A stretch of 64,000 nucleotides of DNA. It comes from Fodinibius salipaludis (GTDB taxonomy: Bacteria; Bacteroidota; Rhodothermia; Balneolales; Balneolaceae). The notes beneath the pieces are model-generated. The model saw only the letters and a program-made list of their open reading frames with translations. It was not told where the DNA came from and ran no database searches. Below, one piece after another: positions 6,921 to 17,389 of this stretch; position 1 is the first letter of the stretch, and each line of letters starts with the position of its first letter. A program made the position numbers and the translations under genes. Where the stretch lies: assembly GCF_002287075.1 (NCBI RefSeq), contig NZ_NSKE01000007.1, forward strand, positions 62,001 through 126,000, written 5' to 3'.

Positions 6921-8174
6921 ATGTATACCTTATTTGCAGCTCCTGTTTTTACCAATGATGCAGTCGTTTTAGGAATCCTACTACTAATTCTGGCATTCAT
7001 ATTTGTCACCTCGAACAGCGACAACCCAAAGTGGCAAAAATTCTATACCTTTGTGCCCTCGCTGCTCCTCTGCTACTTTATTCCATCTATTTTTAACTCA
7101 CTCGGGTTAATATCGGGAGAAGAATCAAACCTTTACTTTGTAGCATCACGGTATCTTTTGCCTGCAAGTTTAGTACTCCTTACTCTCAGTATCGACTTTA
7201 AGGGAATTATCGGCTTAGGACCCAAAGCGATCATCATGTTTTTAGCGGGAACAGTCGGTATTATGATTGGGGGGCCGCTGGCTCTCATTACCGTAAGCTA
7301 TTTTGCTCCCGAAATGACGGCAGGAGCCGGACCCGAAGCCTTATGGCGGGGATTATCAACTATCGCCGGTAGCTGGATTGGCGGCGGTGCAAACCAGACG
7401 GCCATGTTCGAGGTTTTTGATCCCAGTGCTGACCTGTTTTCAGCCATGGTAACGGTTGATATTATTGTTGCAAATATCTGGCTGGCCTTTCTGCTGTATG
7501 GAGCAGGTATTTCTGAAAAAATTGACGCCTGGTTTAAAGCAGATGCTTCACCTATTACAGAACTCAGAAAAAAGATCGAAGATTATCGCGCCAATGTGGC
7601 CAAAATCCCCACCCTCGCTGATATTACCACAATCGTTGCTGTGGGCTTTGTGATCACAGCTATCGGTCATCTGGGCGCCGATGCTATTGCTCCCTGGATC
7701 GGTGAAAACTTTCCCCAGCTCAGCAATTTGAGCTTGGATTCTGAATTTTTCTGGATTATTGTCATTGCTACAACCGGTGGATTAGCCCTTTCTTTTACCC
7801 GTGCTCGAAAGCTTGAAGGGGCAGGTGCTTCTAAATTTGGAAGCTTGTTCCTTTATATCCTGGTAGCTACCATAGGAATGAAAATGAACGTAATGGCTAT
7901 CTTTGAAAGTCCCGGATTCTTCCTCATCGGGCTGCTCTGGATTATTATCCACGTTATTATTCTGTTTATTGTCGCTAAAATTATTAACGCACCGTTCTTC
8001 TTTATTGCCGTGGGCAGCCAAGCTAATGTCGGTGGAGCTGCATCAGCACCTATTGTGGCTTCGGCTTTTCATCCGGCTCTGGCTCCCGTTGGGGTTCTTC
8101 TGGCCGTTCTGGGATATGCGGTGGGCACGTATGCGGCCTACATCTGTGCTATCATGATGCAGTTTGTGAGCTAA
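6921..8174 (+). CDS. DUF819 family integral membrane protein
   Basis: A 417-residue protein with about ten to eleven predicted hydrophobic helices and little soluble sequence apart from a charged loop near residues 205-230. The start MYTLFAAPVFTNDAVVLG, the motif GRxLPASLVLLTL-like stretch in the third helix region, the GSWIGGGANQTAM segment and the C-terminal VGSQANVGGAASAPIVASAF segment fit the DUF819 (COG5505, YjcL-like) family as I know it. The substrate is not established; the inverted glycine-rich segments resemble transporter cores. It is divergent from dapB and followed by a long hairpin. Confidence 0.8.
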   Translation: MYTLFAAPVFTNDAVVLGILLLILAFIFVTSNSDNPKWQKFYTFVPSLLLCYFIPSIFNSLGLISGEESNLYFVASRYLLPASLVLLTLSIDFKGIIGLGPKAIIMFLAGTVGIMIGGPLALITVSYFAPEMTAGAGPEALWRGLSTIAGSWIGGGANQTAMFEVFDPSADLFSAMVTVDIIVANIWLAFLLYGAGISEKIDAWFKADASPITELRKKIEDYRANVAKIPTLADITTIVAVGFVITAIGHLGADAIAPWIGENFPQLSNLSLDSEFFWIIVIATTGGLALSFTRARKLEGAGASKFGSLFLYILVATIGMKMNVMAIFESPGFFLIGLLWIIIHVIILFIVAKIINAPFFFIAVGSQANVGGAASAPIVASAFHPALAPVGVLLAVLGYAVGTYAAYICAIMMQFVS

Positions 8175-8180
8175 CTAAAA

Positions 8181-8229
8181 GGCAAAAGTGAGACGTCAAA
8201 CGTTTACCTTTTCACGTCTCACCTTTGCC
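8181..8229. repeat. Long inverted repeat (16-bp stem)
   Basis: GGCAAAAGTGAGACGT at 8181-8196 pairs with ACGTCTCACCTTTGCC at 8214-8229 with one mismatch and a 17-nt loop. There is no T-tract after it, so it is not a classical intrinsic terminator. It could end transcription of the DUF819 gene with factor help, or be a dispersed palindromic repeat. Confidence 0.6.
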
Positions 8230-8262
8230 AAATAGTTTACTGATTAAAAGACGCAGAATTCC

Positions 8263-11593: not shown

Positions 11594-13231
11594 TTATTCC
11601 AACCCGAGTACATCTACGCCTTGATTGAAGGTGACATCAACGGGGATAGATTGCTCCGATAATCGATCCAGCGACTGCTGCAGCTGATCACCGATAGTGC
11701 CGTATTCCTCTACAAATGCTGCAACACCTTCATAGTCGCCATCTCCCTGAAGGGTGAGAATTTTGTTGGAAAGAGCATCGGTTGCCTCAGCAATTTTGTC
11801 AAAATTCACGCGATAGGTCTGAGAATCTTCATCATAACTGAAAGCACCTTTTTCCTTAAAGTAATTGAATCGAATAAGATTGGCCTTGCCGTGGGCACTG
11901 GATGATCCAAACCGGATAGAACGAAAAATGCTGGCCATAAAGGTTACATAGTTATTTTCAATGGTCCCCTCATCGACCATACCATCCTCGCGCAGTTCCG
12001 AAACCATATATAGTCCCAATACATCGGCCTTGCCTTCCTCCAAAGCCGAAGCATGTTCTTTAAGCGCCTCACGAACGGTACCCTTGTCATTAATCGTATT
12101 CTTGATACCAAGTCCGTGAGCCACTTCATGGAACATCGTATTGCCAAAGAACGCATCGAAGGTCAGATATTGACGCTGATCCTCCGCAATAAGCACGTCG
12201 GAAATAGGCAACAGAATCTTATCATATTTTGCCCGCATTGCGTTTTTCAGCTGCAGACGACGGGTTCCCTTCTCCAGTTGGACCTCCTCATCATTAGGTA
12301 AATTAATTGCTATGGTTTTGGAACCGGCATTGGCATCCCCCGCATAATAAACGGCATCGTAAGCATTGAGATCAGAGTCACGTCCCGGTTTCTCCTGCTT
12401 GTATTCTTCAGCAACAGGCAATCCTTTCTGAAGCTCGGGCAGGACTTCAGCATATTTCGATAAGCGGTTGCTCCACTCCTTATCCTTAATTAATACAAAA
12501 GTTTCGTGAGCCGCTTTATATCCAAATAATTGATCTTCATAATTTTCTATGGGACCAATAACCACTTCGATCGTATTGTCTTTCATATCCAGCCAAGCCA
12601 TATCACTTTCCTGGTACTCATCAGTAAGCAGCGCTTCAGCACGGAGATTGAGGTACTTCTTCAGCCCCTCATCCTCGGTCAGCTTAGCTGCTTCCTTCAA
12701 CTTATCTGCAGCCAGTTGATGCTGCTCGGCAAAAGCCTCATGATATGGGATTGTTGTTAACTCTCCATTTTGCGTCCGGCGTACCAGCGTATAAAGATCA
12801 TCTTTGGTTTCAGAATCCCAATTCTCAAACTCCTCCTTTGTCATATCCGGCGGATAAAAATTAGCGCCTTCCGGTTTGGGACCCACATCATTAATAAAAG
12901 GCTCATTGCCATTCAGTCGATCCCAGGGACCGTAATTTATATGGGCAAACTGTTGCTCTTTCTCAGAAATATTGTTTAAAAGGGTTTCCTTGTTGCCATA
13001 AGCCTCTTCCCAGAACACCTTGTCCATTGCCTTACCGGCATCAATAAGCAGCTTTATAATCTCTTTTTGATTATCACTAAGGGATGAAACGTCCGCCGTT
13101 AATGTAAATTCGGTATACTGATCCAAGCGGTCATCAATCAACATTTTTTTATCGCTTTCCATACTTTGACAACCTGCCAAGAAAAAGGCAATTGCCAGAA
13201 TAGTTATGGCTGAAGTTAAAATAGATTTCAT
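11594..13231 (-). CDS. M49-like (dipeptidyl-peptidase III type) zinc peptidase lipoprotein
   Basis: A 545-residue protein with a lipoprotein signal (ILAIAFFLAGCQS; lipid cysteine at residue 21). A zinc site HEVAHG begins at His368 and a downstream EEGKAD at Glu398, the layout of family M49, whose second motif is EExRAD/E. The surrounding text, REALKEHASALEEGKADVLGL, resembles the bacterial and plant M49-like zinc hydrolases better than classical DPP III, which has HELLGH. The likely role is cleavage of peptides at the outer membrane or periplasmic face. It has its own terminator and is 26 nt downstream of the MscS gene, so it could be part of that transcript. Confidence 0.82.
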   Translation of the reverse strand: MKSILTSAITILAIAFFLAGCQSMESDKKMLIDDRLDQYTEFTLTADVSSLSDNQKEIIKLLIDAGKAMDKVFWEEAYGNKETLLNNISEKEQQFAHINYGPWDRLNGNEPFINDVGPKPEGANFYPPDMTKEEFENWDSETKDDLYTLVRRTQNGELTTIPYHEAFAEQHQLAADKLKEAAKLTEDEGLKKYLNLRAEALLTDEYQESDMAWLDMKDNTIEVVIGPIENYEDQLFGYKAAHETFVLIKDKEWSNRLSKYAEVLPELQKGLPVAEEYKQEKPGRDSDLNAYDAVYYAGDANAGSKTIAINLPNDEEVQLEKGTRRLQLKNAMRAKYDKILLPISDVLIAEDQRQYLTFDAFFGNTMFHEVAHGLGIKNTINDKGTVREALKEHASALEEGKADVLGLYMVSELREDGMVDEGTIENNYVTFMASIFRSIRFGSSSAHGKANLIRFNYFKEKGAFSYDEDSQTYRVNFDKIAEATDALSNKILTLQGDGDYEGVAAFVEEYGTIGDQLQQSLDRLSEQSIPVDVTFNQGVDVLGLE

Positions 13232-13257: not shown

Positions 13258-14280
13258 TTAGGACTTATCAATATACCTCTGTTTGGGAAGTATATCGCGT
13301 TGTTTAAGTTCACTCAAAATCAATTCTGTCATATCACTTTTAAAGGGGAATTCGTACCTGATATCAAGAACATATGCTTTTACCCGAAGTTTGAGCACAA
13401 AATTTTCCTCGTGTACTTCATTCAAAGCAATAATAGCTATAGGCTTTTGTAGATATACATAACGTGATGAAACTGCTGCGCGATAGGCAATACGTTTAAC
13501 CGCATCTATATCCACATTCATTGGTAGAAATATTTCGGCTACTACTTGGCAGTCCAAGGCACTGGAATTCGCGTTTGATACTGCCTTGTTCATCAGCTCA
13601 CTGTTGGGGATCGTTACTATCGAATCATCGGGAGTGACGATACGACTGGACCGTAATCCAATGGCAATCACTTCACCATAATGTTCGGCTACCTGTATCT
13701 TGTCTCCCACCTGAAAAGGGCGATCCATAATAATGATAAAACCGCCAAAAATATTTTTCAGGATATCTTGTGCTGCAAATCCTACGGCTATACCCACTGA
13801 TGCCAATACGGTAATAATAGTACTTAGGGGTGGATCGATAATAGCGGCGATAATGATATATATCGCAAACGTCCATATTACCAGTCGTACAACTGGAACC
13901 ATGCGCTTTATTCCCAGCCGATAGCGCGTAAACTGTTCTGACAAATTTTCTAAGACTACTACCACAAATCGATTCAGAAAATAGGTAAATATCAAAGCGA
14001 TAATAATAGCCAGTATTACACCTACTGAAATAAGATTTTCAATCTCCGAGAGAGCTTTATCAGCATCTTGTGCAACTTGCTCTAAATTTGAGCTCGTATC
14101 GGCCTGTGCAGTATCAATTTTTGCGGTATCCAACTGTATGGTATCAATCTGCACCGGTTTAATTATAATAGTAGTATCGGACTGCTGTTTTACGGTATCT
14201 TGTACCGCGGTGAAGCCGAGGTTATGACATCCTAAAATTATAAACCCCGTCAGGAATAGTATCTTGATAAGTCTATACAT
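13258..14280 (-). CDS. MscS-family mechanosensitive channel
   Basis: A 340-residue small-conductance channel protein. A signal-like first helix is followed by a low-complexity Thr/Asp/Gln stretch (about 25-70), then three helices, the last being the pore-like VASVGIAVGFAAQDILKNIFGG (about 155-185). The beta domain follows with DRPFQVGDKIQV and VTIPNSELMNKAVSNAN. All are MscS signatures. The domain normally opens under membrane tension and releases solutes. The gene starts 7 nt after a large P-loop ATPase gene, an unusual partner that suggests regulated opening. Confidence 0.92.
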   Translation of the reverse strand: MYRLIKILFLTGFIILGCHNLGFTAVQDTVKQQSDTTIIIKPVQIDTIQLDTAKIDTAQADTSSNLEQVAQDADKALSEIENLISVGVILAIIIALIFTYFLNRFVVVVLENLSEQFTRYRLGIKRMVPVVRLVIWTFAIYIIIAAIIDPPLSTIITVLASVGIAVGFAAQDILKNIFGGFIIIMDRPFQVGDKIQVAEHYGEVIAIGLRSSRIVTPDDSIVTIPNSELMNKAVSNANSSALDCQVVAEIFLPMNVDIDAVKRIAYRAAVSSRYVYLQKPIAIIALNEVHEENFVLKLRVKAYVLDIRYEFPFKSDMTELILSELKQRDILPKQRYIDKS

Positions 14281-14287
14281 TCTGCTA

Positions 14288-17230
14288 TTACCCCAAATGA
14301 ATTATATTACGCTCTTTAAGCACCCGAACTATCTGCCGGTACATTAAATGATTGATGGTGAATGATTCATTTTTTTCGATCAATATACCGCGAGATCGCA
14401 ACCGATTTAACAGCAGTCTGCTTTCTTCACGTGTTATATTCATCACCATAGCCAGCTCTTCGTCTGATAACGTATCGTGCAATACAAAAGCTGCCAAAGC
14501 AAACAGTACCGGTGGTTTTAAATCCTCGATCATCTCTACAGATGTTATCTCAAGCGGTCGTATATAAAAATAGATTTCATCAAAATCCCGAATCGATCGT
14601 ATCCAGAATATCATAGCGATAGAGACATTTCCTTCAGCCAACTTTGTAAGCTTTTCGAAATATTCTTTTTTAAGATACTCCTGAGCCTCCTCTTCCTGAT
14701 CTTTTAACTTGCGATAAGTGCGTGATTGCTGTGTTTGACCATCCGGCTCAAAGTAAAGTGAATACCCACTGGCCTGATGCCTGTTTAGAATGACTTGTTT
14801 AACCTGCTCTGCATCCAGCGAATCACTTTTACTGATATGAGAAAAGTACTCGCTGATCTGTAACACCTTATCCAAAAATGACCAGGCGTAGCGAGAGCAA
14901 CTGACCATCCAAAAAATATTATTTCGCGTCTCAGAAATAAGATACGACAACTTTTCGATAGCTTTGAAACCATTAATATTACGAACAAAACAATTTTGTA
15001 TTGATTCCAAGACCACTACTCTGCGCTGATCAGATCCATTAATAGCTGTTACCAGCTCTTCGATACTTTGTGGAGATTCAACCTCAAATTCCGTTGCTAT
15101 TTTACTTACAAGCTGATCTTCTTCCCAAATCGTTCTTGTAAACTCAACTGTTTCCACCTCCTTTTCTTCAAGCTCAGATTCGACTATCAAACTGAGAAAT
15201 GATGATTTTCCACTCCCCTTCTCTCCAACCACTGCAAAATTAGTGGGAAGCTTATTCTGCCACTGCTCATACGCTCTTTTAAACGTTACAGTCGATTCTT
15301 GTGCAGGCTCAAAAAATCGTTTATCGGCCAGCGACTGAAAATCAAACAAGCGCCGATAAATATAGGGCAGCTCGTTCATTTTTTGATCCGTCTCTGAAAG
15401 ATACGTGGCTATATCTATCCTTTTCGACTCCTGGATTTTTTTCTCCTTGAATCCCAAAAACACTTTAAGGTCGGTGCCATACGTTTTCAACTTTTTCCAT
15501 ACAAATCGACTCCATAACATTAGCCAATCCGCAACTCTTGCCCACCGCGAGTCTAACACTGTTTGCCAATCCTTCTTTTTTTCCTTCATCCTATATTTGG
15601 CATTTAACAGCTGTAGCTGCTTAGAATCTCCCTCGTGTAACAGTGCCAACAATGAAGAGAAGAATTTCTCCCTTCCTTCACTAATAGAGTTATCAATCTG
15701 TTGCCACTTTTCATCAGCTCGGTCATTTAGCTCCTGAACCTTTTTCAAAATACGCTTGAGCGCTTCTCCTACCACTTTCGTGGGATCTTCTTTCTCAGTC
15801 ACATCTTCATCGCGAGCTTTCAGTGCCGAATCAAAATTAACTGCTATAATATTTTTAACTTCAATAATCTCTTCCAGGTTTTGAGATAAAAACTCTTCGT
15901 ACTGCTGATTGGCCGGCTGCAGTGGATTCATAAATAATTCTCTAAGAGCCCGGATAACCAGTTGTCGCCATTCCACTTCTTGTTGATTTACCGACGGCGG
16001 ATTTTCATCCAGCTCGGCATCGAAAACCAGTTGGGCTTCCTGTGGAGATTGCCCCACCTTTAGCAGTAAATCTTCGAACAGATGGTCTGTTTTTTGGGCT
16101 AAAATCCGTTTATCCAGCAGTTTCTGTATGGGCTGTATCAGTCGCTCATCTACAAAGGTTTCAAACGTTTCATGCAAGGTCTGCAACTCACCCAGTGTAG
16201 CACCCCGACCAACCTTTTCAGTTGCCTCCTTAATATCTGTTGAAAATTCCTGAAGCGGTGCTTTTAGAGATTTACGGAAGGTATCTTCAAAAGCCCTATT
16301 AAATTTTGCAATCTCCTCTCCAATTTCTGATTGTAGCTTCAAAAATTGAACAACGTCCTTTGTCCGTTCAAAAAAGAGCCGTTGCACAAATTGCCACTGT
16401 TCCTGATACGTACGAAATTGATTCTCTAATTTTTCTTCCGTCGTCTGTAATCGCTTTTCATCAAAAAAATCCGCTCGCCATTCCAGCGTCCCCACTTTTT
16501 CAATATCTTCAGCTATTTGGGACTGCTTGCTGCTGAGTGTTTCTTCTACATTGTCCAGCAGATCAGCCTTTTTCTCCTCAAGCTTCTTCTTTTGATCTGA
16601 TACAAAAACAGTTAAATCCAACTCTTTCTGCTCATCCTCTTCCCTAACCAGCAGATCCTCAATATCTGTAATTAAGTTTAACTGAACACGCTGAAGGTGA
16701 TGTCCCCATTCCAATACAGATTTATCATCCAATAAATAATAGCGTACCGCTTGACGTAAAGGAATCTTTTGTTCCCATCCGGGATATACTTTTCTGTCAG
16801 CTCCAAAAATACTCTTGAAGGCTTGAGTAGTCTTATATCCAAACTTTGCAATATCTCGGGCGGTGCTTTTACTTCGTTTGGCGATTGCTATCCAGATAGG
16901 ATCTTTATGCTGTACTACAAACCGTTCTTCCTCTTGCTTCCAAACTTCATCATCAGGAAATTTTTCACCAATCCGATCGACGGCGGATAAGTATATTCCC
17001 AAAATACTCTCACGTTCCTTTTTGGACAGGGTATCCTCAATATTTTTCAAGATCCCCGGAAATCCCAGCTTTATGATATCTTCGGTATCATACTTTCGTT
17101 CTACCGCAGAAAAATATCTCAACAACTGTTCCAACCGATCAAAATGTGCTTCAATATGCTCGGTAAGAATGGCCTCCAGATCTTCTGTAATGCACTTCTG
17201 TAGCTTTTTCCTAAATTCTTGACGATTCAA
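14288..17230 (-). CDS. 980-residue coiled-coil P-loop ATPase linked to MscS gene
   Basis: I do not recognise the family. Residues 1 to about 650 are charged and helical, with long coiled-coil-like stretches rich in Glu, Lys and Gln and no clear membrane segment. A Walker A motif GEKGSGKSS sits near residue 667. A Walker B-like RRVVVLESIQ lies near residue 738, and SCSRYAWSFLDKV could be a sensor region. The C-terminal part (about 900-980), LSDEELAMVMNITREESRLLLNRLRSRGILI, reads as a winged helix. The layout is like a STAND or AAA+ switch ATPase. The start codon is TTG at 17230 with AAAGG upstream; no in-frame ATG is near. It overlaps nothing and is 7 nt from the MscS gene. Confidence 0.7.
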   Translation of the reverse strand: MNRQEFRKKLQKCITEDLEAILTEHIEAHFDRLEQLLRYFSAVERKYDTEDIIKLGFPGILKNIEDTLSKKERESILGIYLSAVDRIGEKFPDDEVWKQEEERFVVQHKDPIWIAIAKRSKSTARDIAKFGYKTTQAFKSIFGADRKVYPGWEQKIPLRQAVRYYLLDDKSVLEWGHHLQRVQLNLITDIEDLLVREEDEQKELDLTVFVSDQKKKLEEKKADLLDNVEETLSSKQSQIAEDIEKVGTLEWRADFFDEKRLQTTEEKLENQFRTYQEQWQFVQRLFFERTKDVVQFLKLQSEIGEEIAKFNRAFEDTFRKSLKAPLQEFSTDIKEATEKVGRGATLGELQTLHETFETFVDERLIQPIQKLLDKRILAQKTDHLFEDLLLKVGQSPQEAQLVFDAELDENPPSVNQQEVEWRQLVIRALRELFMNPLQPANQQYEEFLSQNLEEIIEVKNIIAVNFDSALKARDEDVTEKEDPTKVVGEALKRILKKVQELNDRADEKWQQIDNSISEGREKFFSSLLALLHEGDSKQLQLLNAKYRMKEKKKDWQTVLDSRWARVADWLMLWSRFVWKKLKTYGTDLKVFLGFKEKKIQESKRIDIATYLSETDQKMNELPYIYRRLFDFQSLADKRFFEPAQESTVTFKRAYEQWQNKLPTNFAVVGEKGSGKSSFLSLIVESELEEKEVETVEFTRTIWEEDQLVSKIATEFEVESPQSIEELVTAINGSDQRRVVVLESIQNCFVRNINGFKAIEKLSYLISETRNNIFWMVSCSRYAWSFLDKVLQISEYFSHISKSDSLDAEQVKQVILNRHQASGYSLYFEPDGQTQQSRTYRKLKDQEEEAQEYLKKEYFEKLTKLAEGNVSIAMIFWIRSIRDFDEIYFYIRPLEITSVEMIEDLKPPVLFALAAFVLHDTLSDEELAMVMNITREESRLLLNRLRSRGILIEKNESFTINHLMYRQIVRVLKERNIIHLG

Positions 17231-17389
17231 TGGAAATACCTTTATTAATTACATTTCCCACAAAGTGATTAAAATATGATGAAATACAAACTAATACTTA
17301 CCGTTACTTACTGGGAATCATGACAATAATCCCTTTTCTTCTGGGGCAAATATTAGTTAATTTCGACCAAAATATTCTTCAGCATTACA

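Follow-up and report, generated by a model that had tools for sequence, protein, structure and literature searches.

The window, a 64,000-nucleotide stretch of DNA from Fodinibius salipaludis, carries a gene for a 980-residue AAA+ protein that is followed at once by a gene for an MscS channel (Table 1). The earlier note had given the coordinates, the protein length and the 7-nt spacing before the MscS gene correctly, and had left out the strand, which is minus. No terminator-like site was found in the gap between the two genes, the promoter-like sites in the scanned stretch upstream of the AAA+ gene were not more frequent than in shuffled sequences, and no riboswitch match was obtained in the window region around the operon. 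The M49-family peptidase gene downstream possibly lies on the same transcript; because this peptidase occurs in the cluster at only 7 of 38 loci, we place it outside the core module. The window locus is syntenic within its own family. Judged by eye, its neighbours resemble housekeeping genes (amidase, uridine kinase and RecQ).

Table 1. Features of the AAA+/MscS locus in the window
Feature	Position	Strand	Basis or remark
AAA+ (ORC/Cdc6-like) protein gene	17230..14288	minus	TTG start, 980 aa
N-terminal helical rod, residues 1-591	15458..17230	minus	AlphaFold2 model and relatives
AAA+ domain, ORC/Cdc6-like fold, residues about 607-897	14540..15412	minus	Model and structure matches
Walker A, GEKGSGKSS, residues 669-677	15200..15226	minus	Sequence
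Walker B-like strand with Glu at 742, residues 737-743	15002..15022	minus	Sequence (VVVLE = 738-742)
Winged helix at the C-terminus, residues 906-973	14312..14515	minus	AlphaFold2 model; weak MarR/TFIIE profile matches
AAA+/MscS intergenic gap, 7 nt	14281..14287	minus	
MscS channel gene, 340 aa	14280..13258	minus	Signal-like N-terminus and three hydrophobic segments; dedicated subfamily
MscS beta domain, residues 172-238	13567..13767	minus	PF00924, E 8e-22
M49-family peptidase, lipoprotein-like N-terminus	11594..13231	minus	26 nt downstream of the MscS gene
Upstream region, 159 nt	17231..17389	minus	Common to the AAA+ gene and a divergent gene that by eye encodes an amidase

In the AlphaFold2 model of the AAA+ protein (mean pLDDT 84.6, pTM 0.65), the rod is mostly helical with small beta elements, for example at residues 399-419, and a low-confidence hinge at residues 595-603 separates it from the AAA+ domain. 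The motifs given in the earlier note are present: the Walker A motif reported near residue 667 begins at 669, the Walker B-like strand near 738 is VVVLE, and the winged-helix-like end was placed by the model at 906-973, the protein stopping 7 residues after the last helix. Structure comparison, which effectively covers residues 619-947 and leaves the rod outside, identified the AAA+ plus winged-helix fold of ORC/Cdc6 proteins, which gave the top matches (7jgr_G, Z 15.6; 2v1u_A, Z 15.4); the best 50 matches listed were all AAA+ chains (ORC, Cdc6, TnsC, NSF, RFC and BrxC). Phmmer found no sequence relative of a solved structure, and a profile search gave only weak P-loop and winged-helix matches. 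The note had proposed a profile search for STAND, KAP or AAA+ affinity. AAA+ is supported by the fold, while the window protein stays below the Pfam cut-off for AAA_22 (23.7 vs. 27 bits), and the nSTAND1 match is also sub-threshold (18.6 vs. 27.1 bits); distant relatives (L137, L141, L142 and L144) do pass a Pfam AAA cut-off. The C-terminal superstructure-forming sensor repeats of STAND proteins are absent, the last helix ending at 973 of 980, and the hydropathy profile contains no hydrophobic segment that could represent the TM helices inserted in the P-loop domain of KAP proteins.

MscS channels are textbook safety valves opened by membrane tension. The window channel scores 77.6 bits against the curated PF00924 cut-off of 20.2, and hydropathy, examined together with the alignment, gives three transmembrane segments (83-101, 130-148 and 152-170), with the pore-lining TM3 ahead of the beta domain, in addition to an N-terminal segment at 4-22. 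The genomes examined hold 2-10 MscS copies each. In 21 of 22 genomes, the copy partnered with the AAA+ protein scored 216-469 bits, against at most 121 bits for the other copies. In G001, the AAA+-adjacent MscS reached 61 bits, below another MscS of the same genome (97 bits), and at the second locus of G070, the channel neighbouring the AAA+ gene was unmatched in this comparison. The transporter-fused systems, described below, carry divergent channels. In the MscS tree, 11 non-adjacent copies grouped apart from the partners, except for the long-branched partner at L066, and this tree is not leaned on because the support is weak (84/36).

A search with the AAA+ protein alone yielded 83 distinct loci after removal of 19 duplicates, and an MscS gene adjoins the AAA+ gene on the same strand in 81 of them (80 by script, to which we add L061 with its overlapping pair of frames). 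The two remaining loci stop at a contig edge; every distinct locus with sequence on both sides (81 of 81) thus contains the pair, which is therefore not due to chance. MscS lay beside the AAA+ gene in all 38 loci that the first phylum sample yielded, in 49 of 51 named loci (the other two being cut at contig edges), many of which are records of metagenome bins with possible contamination, and in 13 of 13 further loci from Acidobacteriota, Pseudomonadota, one Ignavibacteria and one KSB1, the last repeating L105. The pair singled out in the earlier note is thus a genuine unit with extreme conservation, and homologues lying mostly away from channel genes, the outcome the note named as its refutation, were not what we found. 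A scan of genome contigs with the whole AAA+ protein as query gave no match. In a separate genome search, a match in G111 (E 2e-4) was a 129-aa frame with four stops, which we attribute to chance similarity of coils and did not keep.

The same association was seen from the side of the channel. Three phylum samples with 696 genomes in total contained the MscS subfamily (E 1e-45) in 56 genomes, and an AAA+ relative adjoined it in every one of them. In the first sample, it was present in 36 of 198 genomes, all AAA+-positive, and in 0 of 160 genomes without an AAA+ match, a co-occurrence that is partly circular because the MscS profile had been made from 16 of these 36 channels. In Acidobacteriota, none of whose channels were used for the profile, it was found in 5 of 149 genomes, all AAA+-positive. 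Among 349 Pseudomonadota genomes, 15 possessed the subfamily; 6 were already AAA+-positive by search, and reading of the other 9 loci revealed an AAA+-like relative directly upstream, eight with E values of 1e-28 to 4e-23 and the ninth (L150) a weak match at 7e-5. One Pseudomonadota search had missed eight partners later found by reading the loci, and absences in general are soft because the searches scored a limited number of first-look candidates in each genome, such as 4 or 5. The sequences show that the two genes are inseparable across several phyla, with a pairing close to obligatory. Two housekeeping genes that do different jobs could be held together by nothing more than co-transcription and shared regulation. 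However, the gene order is reversed in five loci, the flanking genes differ from lineage to lineage, and in none of the 696 genomes was the subfamily found (E 1e-45) unless an AAA+-like gene adjoined it, the neighbour at L150 being a weak match, so this explanation seems improbable to us. Among mostly openly accessible articles, we found no paper on such an AAA+/MscS pair. The osmotic genes of Fodinibius salsisoli include Msc channels, Ktr and NhaA, and an AAA+ partner is not mentioned among them in the available part of that article (PMC9909488).

The window protein retains the Walker A lysine (Lys675), and its Walker B acid is a glutamate followed by a serine. Of 71 relatives, 19 have another residue in place of the lysine, which is also missing, by eye, in both longer Pseudomonadota forms inspected, and the residue following the Walker B acid is never a glutamate in those compared. 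The loss of the lysine makes the protein look less like a motor than like a regulator, either nucleotide-sensing or structural, and nucleotide control of the usual form cannot be general; the label of switch-type ATPase given in the note is consequently doubtful for the family as a whole. An AAA+ chaperone for the assembly, disassembly or quality control of the MscS subfamily would account for the constant pairing with a homo-oligomeric membrane protein, but the 19 lost lysines and the missing glutamate argue against a hydrolysis-driven machine, and the fusions to antiporters and cotransporters would be needless for it. We regard such a chaperone as a rather poor candidate.

These fusions were identified by domain searches. 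A Na+/H+ antiporter domain (PF00999) is fused to the AAA+ relative in L057, L058 and L104, and an AA_permease domain in L066, L130 and L136, with SLC12 matches in L130 and L136; MscS remains adjacent in both groups. Eight antiporter fusions form one clade (support 100/96), and L066 represents a separate fusion; it had been labelled as antiporter-fused by length, and the domain search shows an amino-acid-permease/SLC12-type transporter. Some relatives carry other membrane segments. The rod of the window protein is homologous to, and lies co-linear with, the stretch that joins the transporter to the AAA+ domain in antiporter-fused relatives, a homology that may partly reflect coil bias (30-65 bits in 5 of 8 single-sequence matches). 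In eight syntenic relatives, the rod is absent, and all eight keep MscS. On the AAA+ side of the pair, what stays constant is the AAA+/winged-helix part, and the rod is optional.

The flanking genes were surveyed in 123 same-strand ORFs from 40 loci, of which 102, from 36 loci, were scanned; 13 were left out by length (<140 or >999 aa), as were 8 of the remaining 110, two of them as spurious and the others to shorten the set. We regard the c42 'genes' in L062/L063 as spurious ORF calls, and likewise one antisense ORF at L065. TrkH was found in 8, TrkA in 8 and CorA in 7 of the 102 proteins. TrkH/TrkA genes lie beside antiporter-fused AAA+ loci, and CorA comes after the pair in some unfused loci; outside the transporter-fused clade, many loci are flanked by genes unrelated to ion transport. 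The TrkH/TrkA counts come largely from that clade. Among eight related loci, RNA matches comprised a Moco riboswitch, three tRNAs, tmRNA and RNase P RNA, with no ion or second-messenger riboswitch.

The fold raises the question of whether the protein acts on DNA, as a transcriptional or DNA-tethered regulator that governs expression of its operon or anchors the channel at the nucleoid. Its best folds are ORC/Cdc6, with which it shares an AAA+ domain plus winged helix, and the latter could bind DNA. However, a winged helix is also the norm in STAND proteins that do not bind DNA, and relatives built onto polytopic transporters or carrying other membrane segments suit a membrane regulator better, so we consider action on DNA unlikely. 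The protein also differs from ORC/Cdc6 in its low identity (about 12-14 percent for the chains that align best), its rod or transporter N-terminus and the poor Walker motifs of many relatives, and no replication family was present among the 25 commonest Pfam families of the 102 flanking proteins.

The earlier note had likened the pair to STAND-based phage-defence modules and had suggested a search for defence islands. A phage-defence or abortive-infection module, with a STAND-like sensor and a pore-forming channel as effector, could be read from the sub-threshold nSTAND and AAA_16 profile matches, from the presence of Apaf-1 among the Foldseek matches and from the weak PADLOC matches of the AAA+ protein (mad8, E 6e-4; ZorA, 0.024). 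The broad P-loop/winged-helix layout is indeed shared with STAND/nSTAND proteins, including NLR-like defence proteins, but the window protein is without their sensor repeats, and the surroundings speak against defence. First, PADLOC at 1e-10 matched 0 of the 102 same-strand flanking proteins, and revealed neither a described anti-phage system nor a defence neighbourhood. Second, tblastn searches of 50,697 phage records and 72,556 plasmid records gave no match. Third, the locus keeps its syntenic place in the family, among genes that by eye are housekeeping-like. Fourth, relatives occur together with ion transporters, either in one fused protein or in the same gene cluster. The likeness drawn in the note is therefore not sustained, and a defence role is very improbable; given the ion-transporter fusions of the AAA+ protein in some species, the pair looks like an undescribed salt/turgor control module rather than a system against viruses.

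On balance, we favour the view that the 980-aa protein acts in the cytoplasm as the dedicated partner and regulator of one MscS subfamily within a turgor/ion-homeostasis module. We infer direct contact between the AAA+ protein and MscS and gating of the channel. In this mechanism, the AAA+/winged-helix head would contact the channel or its assembly, and its occupancy by nucleotide (ATP/ADP, or a different ligand in proteins that have lost the lysine) would set, via a conformational change, how easily the channel opens, hydrolysis being probably slow or unnecessary. The release of solutes and K+ would then answer both to membrane tension and to the state of the cytoplasm, and the rod, where present, may space or anchor the head or sense the cytoplasm. 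As the subfamily was not found without its AAA+ partner, part of the MscS family would be under cytoplasmic control. More tentatively, the ORC-like, often pseudo-enzymatic head might be a common control subunit of several unrelated ion pathways, associated always with MscS, by fusion with a CPA antiporter or SLC12 cotransporter, and by gene clustering with Trk and CorA, so that one cytoplasmic sensor would govern uptake, exchange and emergency release; we hold this wider proposal to be possible, though doubtful. The antiporter and SLC12-type fusions suggest a general bacterial module coordinating ion flux and cell volume.

Regulatory input into channels of the MscS superfamily has precedents in MscK and the cyclic-nucleotide-gated bCNG channels. 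They share with the window channel the MscS pore and beta domain, and an opening set by more than tension is the principle proposed here; their regulation lies inside the channel protein, whereas here it would fall to a separate large AAA+ partner. CPA antiporters and SLC12 cotransporters possess cytoplasmic regulatory tails, and in some relatives the AAA+ protein forms such a C-terminal part of the transporter, while that of the window is free-standing; to our knowledge, an AAA+ tail has been described for neither transporter type. In the TrkH-TrkA and KtrB-KtrA potassium uptake systems, gating is performed by RCK nucleotide-binding subunits. Control of an ion channel by a separate cytoplasmic nucleotide-binding subunit is likewise proposed here, and TrkH/TrkA occur in some of the same clusters; the RCK subunit, however, has a Rossmann fold, whereas the protein described here combines AAA+ with a winged helix and has MscS as its constant partner.

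The pairing of the AAA+ gene with an MscS gene is nearly obligatory. Homologues were sought with the AAA+ protein alone, and their neighbours were read afterwards. In the sample from the window's phylum, 38 of 198 genomes gave an AAA+ match, one of them (genome G111) spurious; the 37 real genomes, window included, hold 38 loci (genome G070 has two), and MscS was adjacent in all 38, by the ORF caller in 36 and by tblastn in two. Among named genomes, 49 of 51 loci carried a same-strand MscS, and at the two exceptions, L108 and L115, the sequence ends 42 and 1 bases past the match, respectively. MscS was also adjacent in 13/13 loci from further phyla, one of which (L131) repeats L105. The question raised in the earlier note, whether homologues sit next to MscS across genomes, was answered positively: after 19 duplicates were dropped from 102 loci, MscS was adjacent in 81 of 83 distinct loci (80 by script, plus L061, whose overlapping frames the script's rule had dropped). 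The AAA+ gene comes first in 76 of these (75 and L061) and MscS in five. Named lineages with the pair include Balneolota, Bacteroidota, Ignavibacteriota, Calditrichota, Acidobacteriota, KSB1, Margulisiibacteriota and a Gallionella (Pseudomonadota), many of these records being metagenome bins. In a search of 55 Margulisiibacteriota genomes, the AAA+ gene turned up in one. The locus is syntenic inside the window's own family, so that rows from this family are not independent; outside it, the flanks vary and the pair persists.

In the window, the gene coordinates bore out the earlier description of a 980-residue protein encoded 7 nt before MscS, and the scan placed no terminator-like site in the gap between the two genes, its site total being not above that of shuffles. 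Among named records, uncultured Aliifodinibius bins (Balneolaceae) come nearest, with 85 percent identity in the AAA+ part. Besides the window, only six other loci of the family have the M49 peptidase gene in their cluster. Read by eye, several partner channels start with a signal-like segment whose last residue is a lipobox-like Cys, among them the window MscS (14280-14200, IILGC) and those of loci L063 (LAAC) and L067 (LPAC); a lipidated channel subunit would be unusual.

Features of the AAA+/MscS locus in the window
Feature	Position	Strand	Remarks
AAA+ gene	17230-14288	minus	980 codons, TTG start
MscS gene	14280-13258	minus	starts 7 nt past AAA+ gene end
M49-type (dipeptidyl-peptidase III-like) peptidase gene	13231-11594	minus	26 nt past MscS; lipoprotein-type N-terminus
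Terminator-like site	11570-11545	minus	past peptidase gene; total sites in scan no more than in shuffles

As judged from profile scores, the AAA+-paired channels are one MscS subfamily. With a profile built from 16 partner channels, 22 genomes showed 2-10 MscS copies each; in 21 of them the partner scored 216-469 bits and no other copy exceeded 121, the counter-case being genome G001 (AAA+-adjacent MscS 61 bits, another copy 97). The MscS adjacent to the second locus of G070 was unmatched by this profile. At E 1e-45, the subfamily occurred in 36 of the 198 genomes of the window's phylum sample, every one AAA+-positive, and in 0 of the 160 lacking an AAA+ match; 16 of those 36 channels had trained the profile, and therefore the clean tests are the other phyla. 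In Acidobacteriota, the subfamily was present in 5 of 149 genomes, all within the six that are AAA+-positive, and the adjoining MscS of the sixth (G318) is divergent. In Pseudomonadota, it was present in 15 of 349, among them all six AAA+-positive genomes; the other nine seemed counter-examples, but once read, all nine had an AAA+-like gene immediately upstream, the match being clear at eight loci (E 1.4e-28 to 3.6e-23) and weak at L150 (E 7e-5). Altogether, the subfamily was found in 56 of 696 genomes with an AAA+-like gene beside it in 56/56, L150 being the weak neighbour; these genome counts are lower bounds because few candidates (4 to 13) were scored per genome.

An AlphaFold2 model of the window AAA+ protein (44-row alignment, mean pLDDT 84.6, pTM 0.65) predicted a helical rod (1-591) that leads through a hinge into an AAA+ domain and then a winged helix, the last in agreement with the winged-helix-like C-terminal end noticed earlier. 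ORC/Cdc6 proteins headed the structural matches, with Z scores as high as 15.6 and identities of 12-14 percent; TnsC, NSF-D2 and BrxC ranked little lower. In the sequence profile search, no Pfam or NCBIfam model scored above cut-off. The window protein keeps the Walker A lysine, but 19 of 71 distinct relatives have another residue there (R in 6, A in 6, I in 3, and N, M, V and L in 1 each), while the preceding P-loop glycine is present in 71/71. As the Walker B acid, 56 of the 71 have Glu and 12 have Asp, and the residue after it is Glu in none. Gly754, Arg817 and His918 are among the residues outside the Walker motifs that are invariant in 38/38 alignment rows. This pattern suggests that binding or conformation weighs more than catalysis. 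At L150 (8570-9754), in one pseudomonadote, the AAA+ position before MscS is occupied by a 394-aa protein with no P-loop by eye, perhaps a fully degenerate head (AAA+ domain and winged helix).

In hhalign, the window rod aligned along its length with the segment intervening between antiporter and AAA+ parts in fused relatives, at 99.7 percent over 593 columns with 10 percent identity. Of the eight matches to single sequences, those to L105 (4e-49), L104 (4e-25) and L061 (5e-22) had low bias and the remaining five high bias. The rod has been lost, and MscS retained, in eight syntenic relatives from two genera (L042-L047, L049, L051) that group as a single clade in the tree; it is therefore probably the head that is tied to the channel.

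Eight relatives (L057-L061, L104, L105, L111) carry an N-terminal antiporter-type domain, with PF00999 confirmed in L057, L058 and L104, and L105 and L111 matching a profile made from L057-L061. They form one clade, whose genomes come from the window's phylum sample and from Ignavibacteriota, Acidobacteriota and KSB1, and all eight are accompanied by TrkH, TrkA-type and second 10-TM genes, the last with weak antiporter-profile matches and no Pfam family. TrkH also lies near one unfused pair (L064). An AA_permease domain is carried by L066, L130 and L136, two of which gave SLC12 matches, and other membrane segments occur in some members from Pseudomonadota. In a set of 102 same-strand flanking proteins drawn from 36 loci, TrkH (8), TrkA (8) and CorA (7) were the most frequent families, the TrkH and TrkA counts stemming largely from the antiporter-fused clade. 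What the partners have in common is a link to ion and volume balance. The likeness to phage-defence modules raised in the earlier note gained no support from PADLOC, which matched 0 of these 102 proteins at 1e-10.

We infer that the AAA+ protein would be a regulatory subunit of the MscS channel. Its head would act on the channel and alter its opening, triggered by nucleotide state or another cytoplasmic signal, and the rod or fused transporter would position the head. The component families are already known, and the pair with AAA+ would be a variant of regulated MscS-type channel systems; no description of the pair or of the transporter fusions was found among the titles and abstract openings listed by searches of an open-access library.

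A CorA-type Mg2+ transporter gene follows MscS at nine loci, L054 (5790-6869), L055, L093 (a repeat of L054), L095-L099 and L101, and at L095, L097, L099 and L101 a second MscS of another type lies between partner MscS and CorA. Beside the antiporter-fused locus L131 (KSB1), a second, broken-looking AAA+ C-terminus and MscS occur in short frames (7283-8240). Among eight loci scanned for RNA genes, a tmRNA (L138, 6545-6898) and a tRNA (L136, 14378-14451) immediately precede the AAA+ gene, and L060 (16121-16202) and L111 (14109-14190) have tRNAs ~4 kb downstream of MscS; these RNA genes may mark insertion sites through which the module spread.
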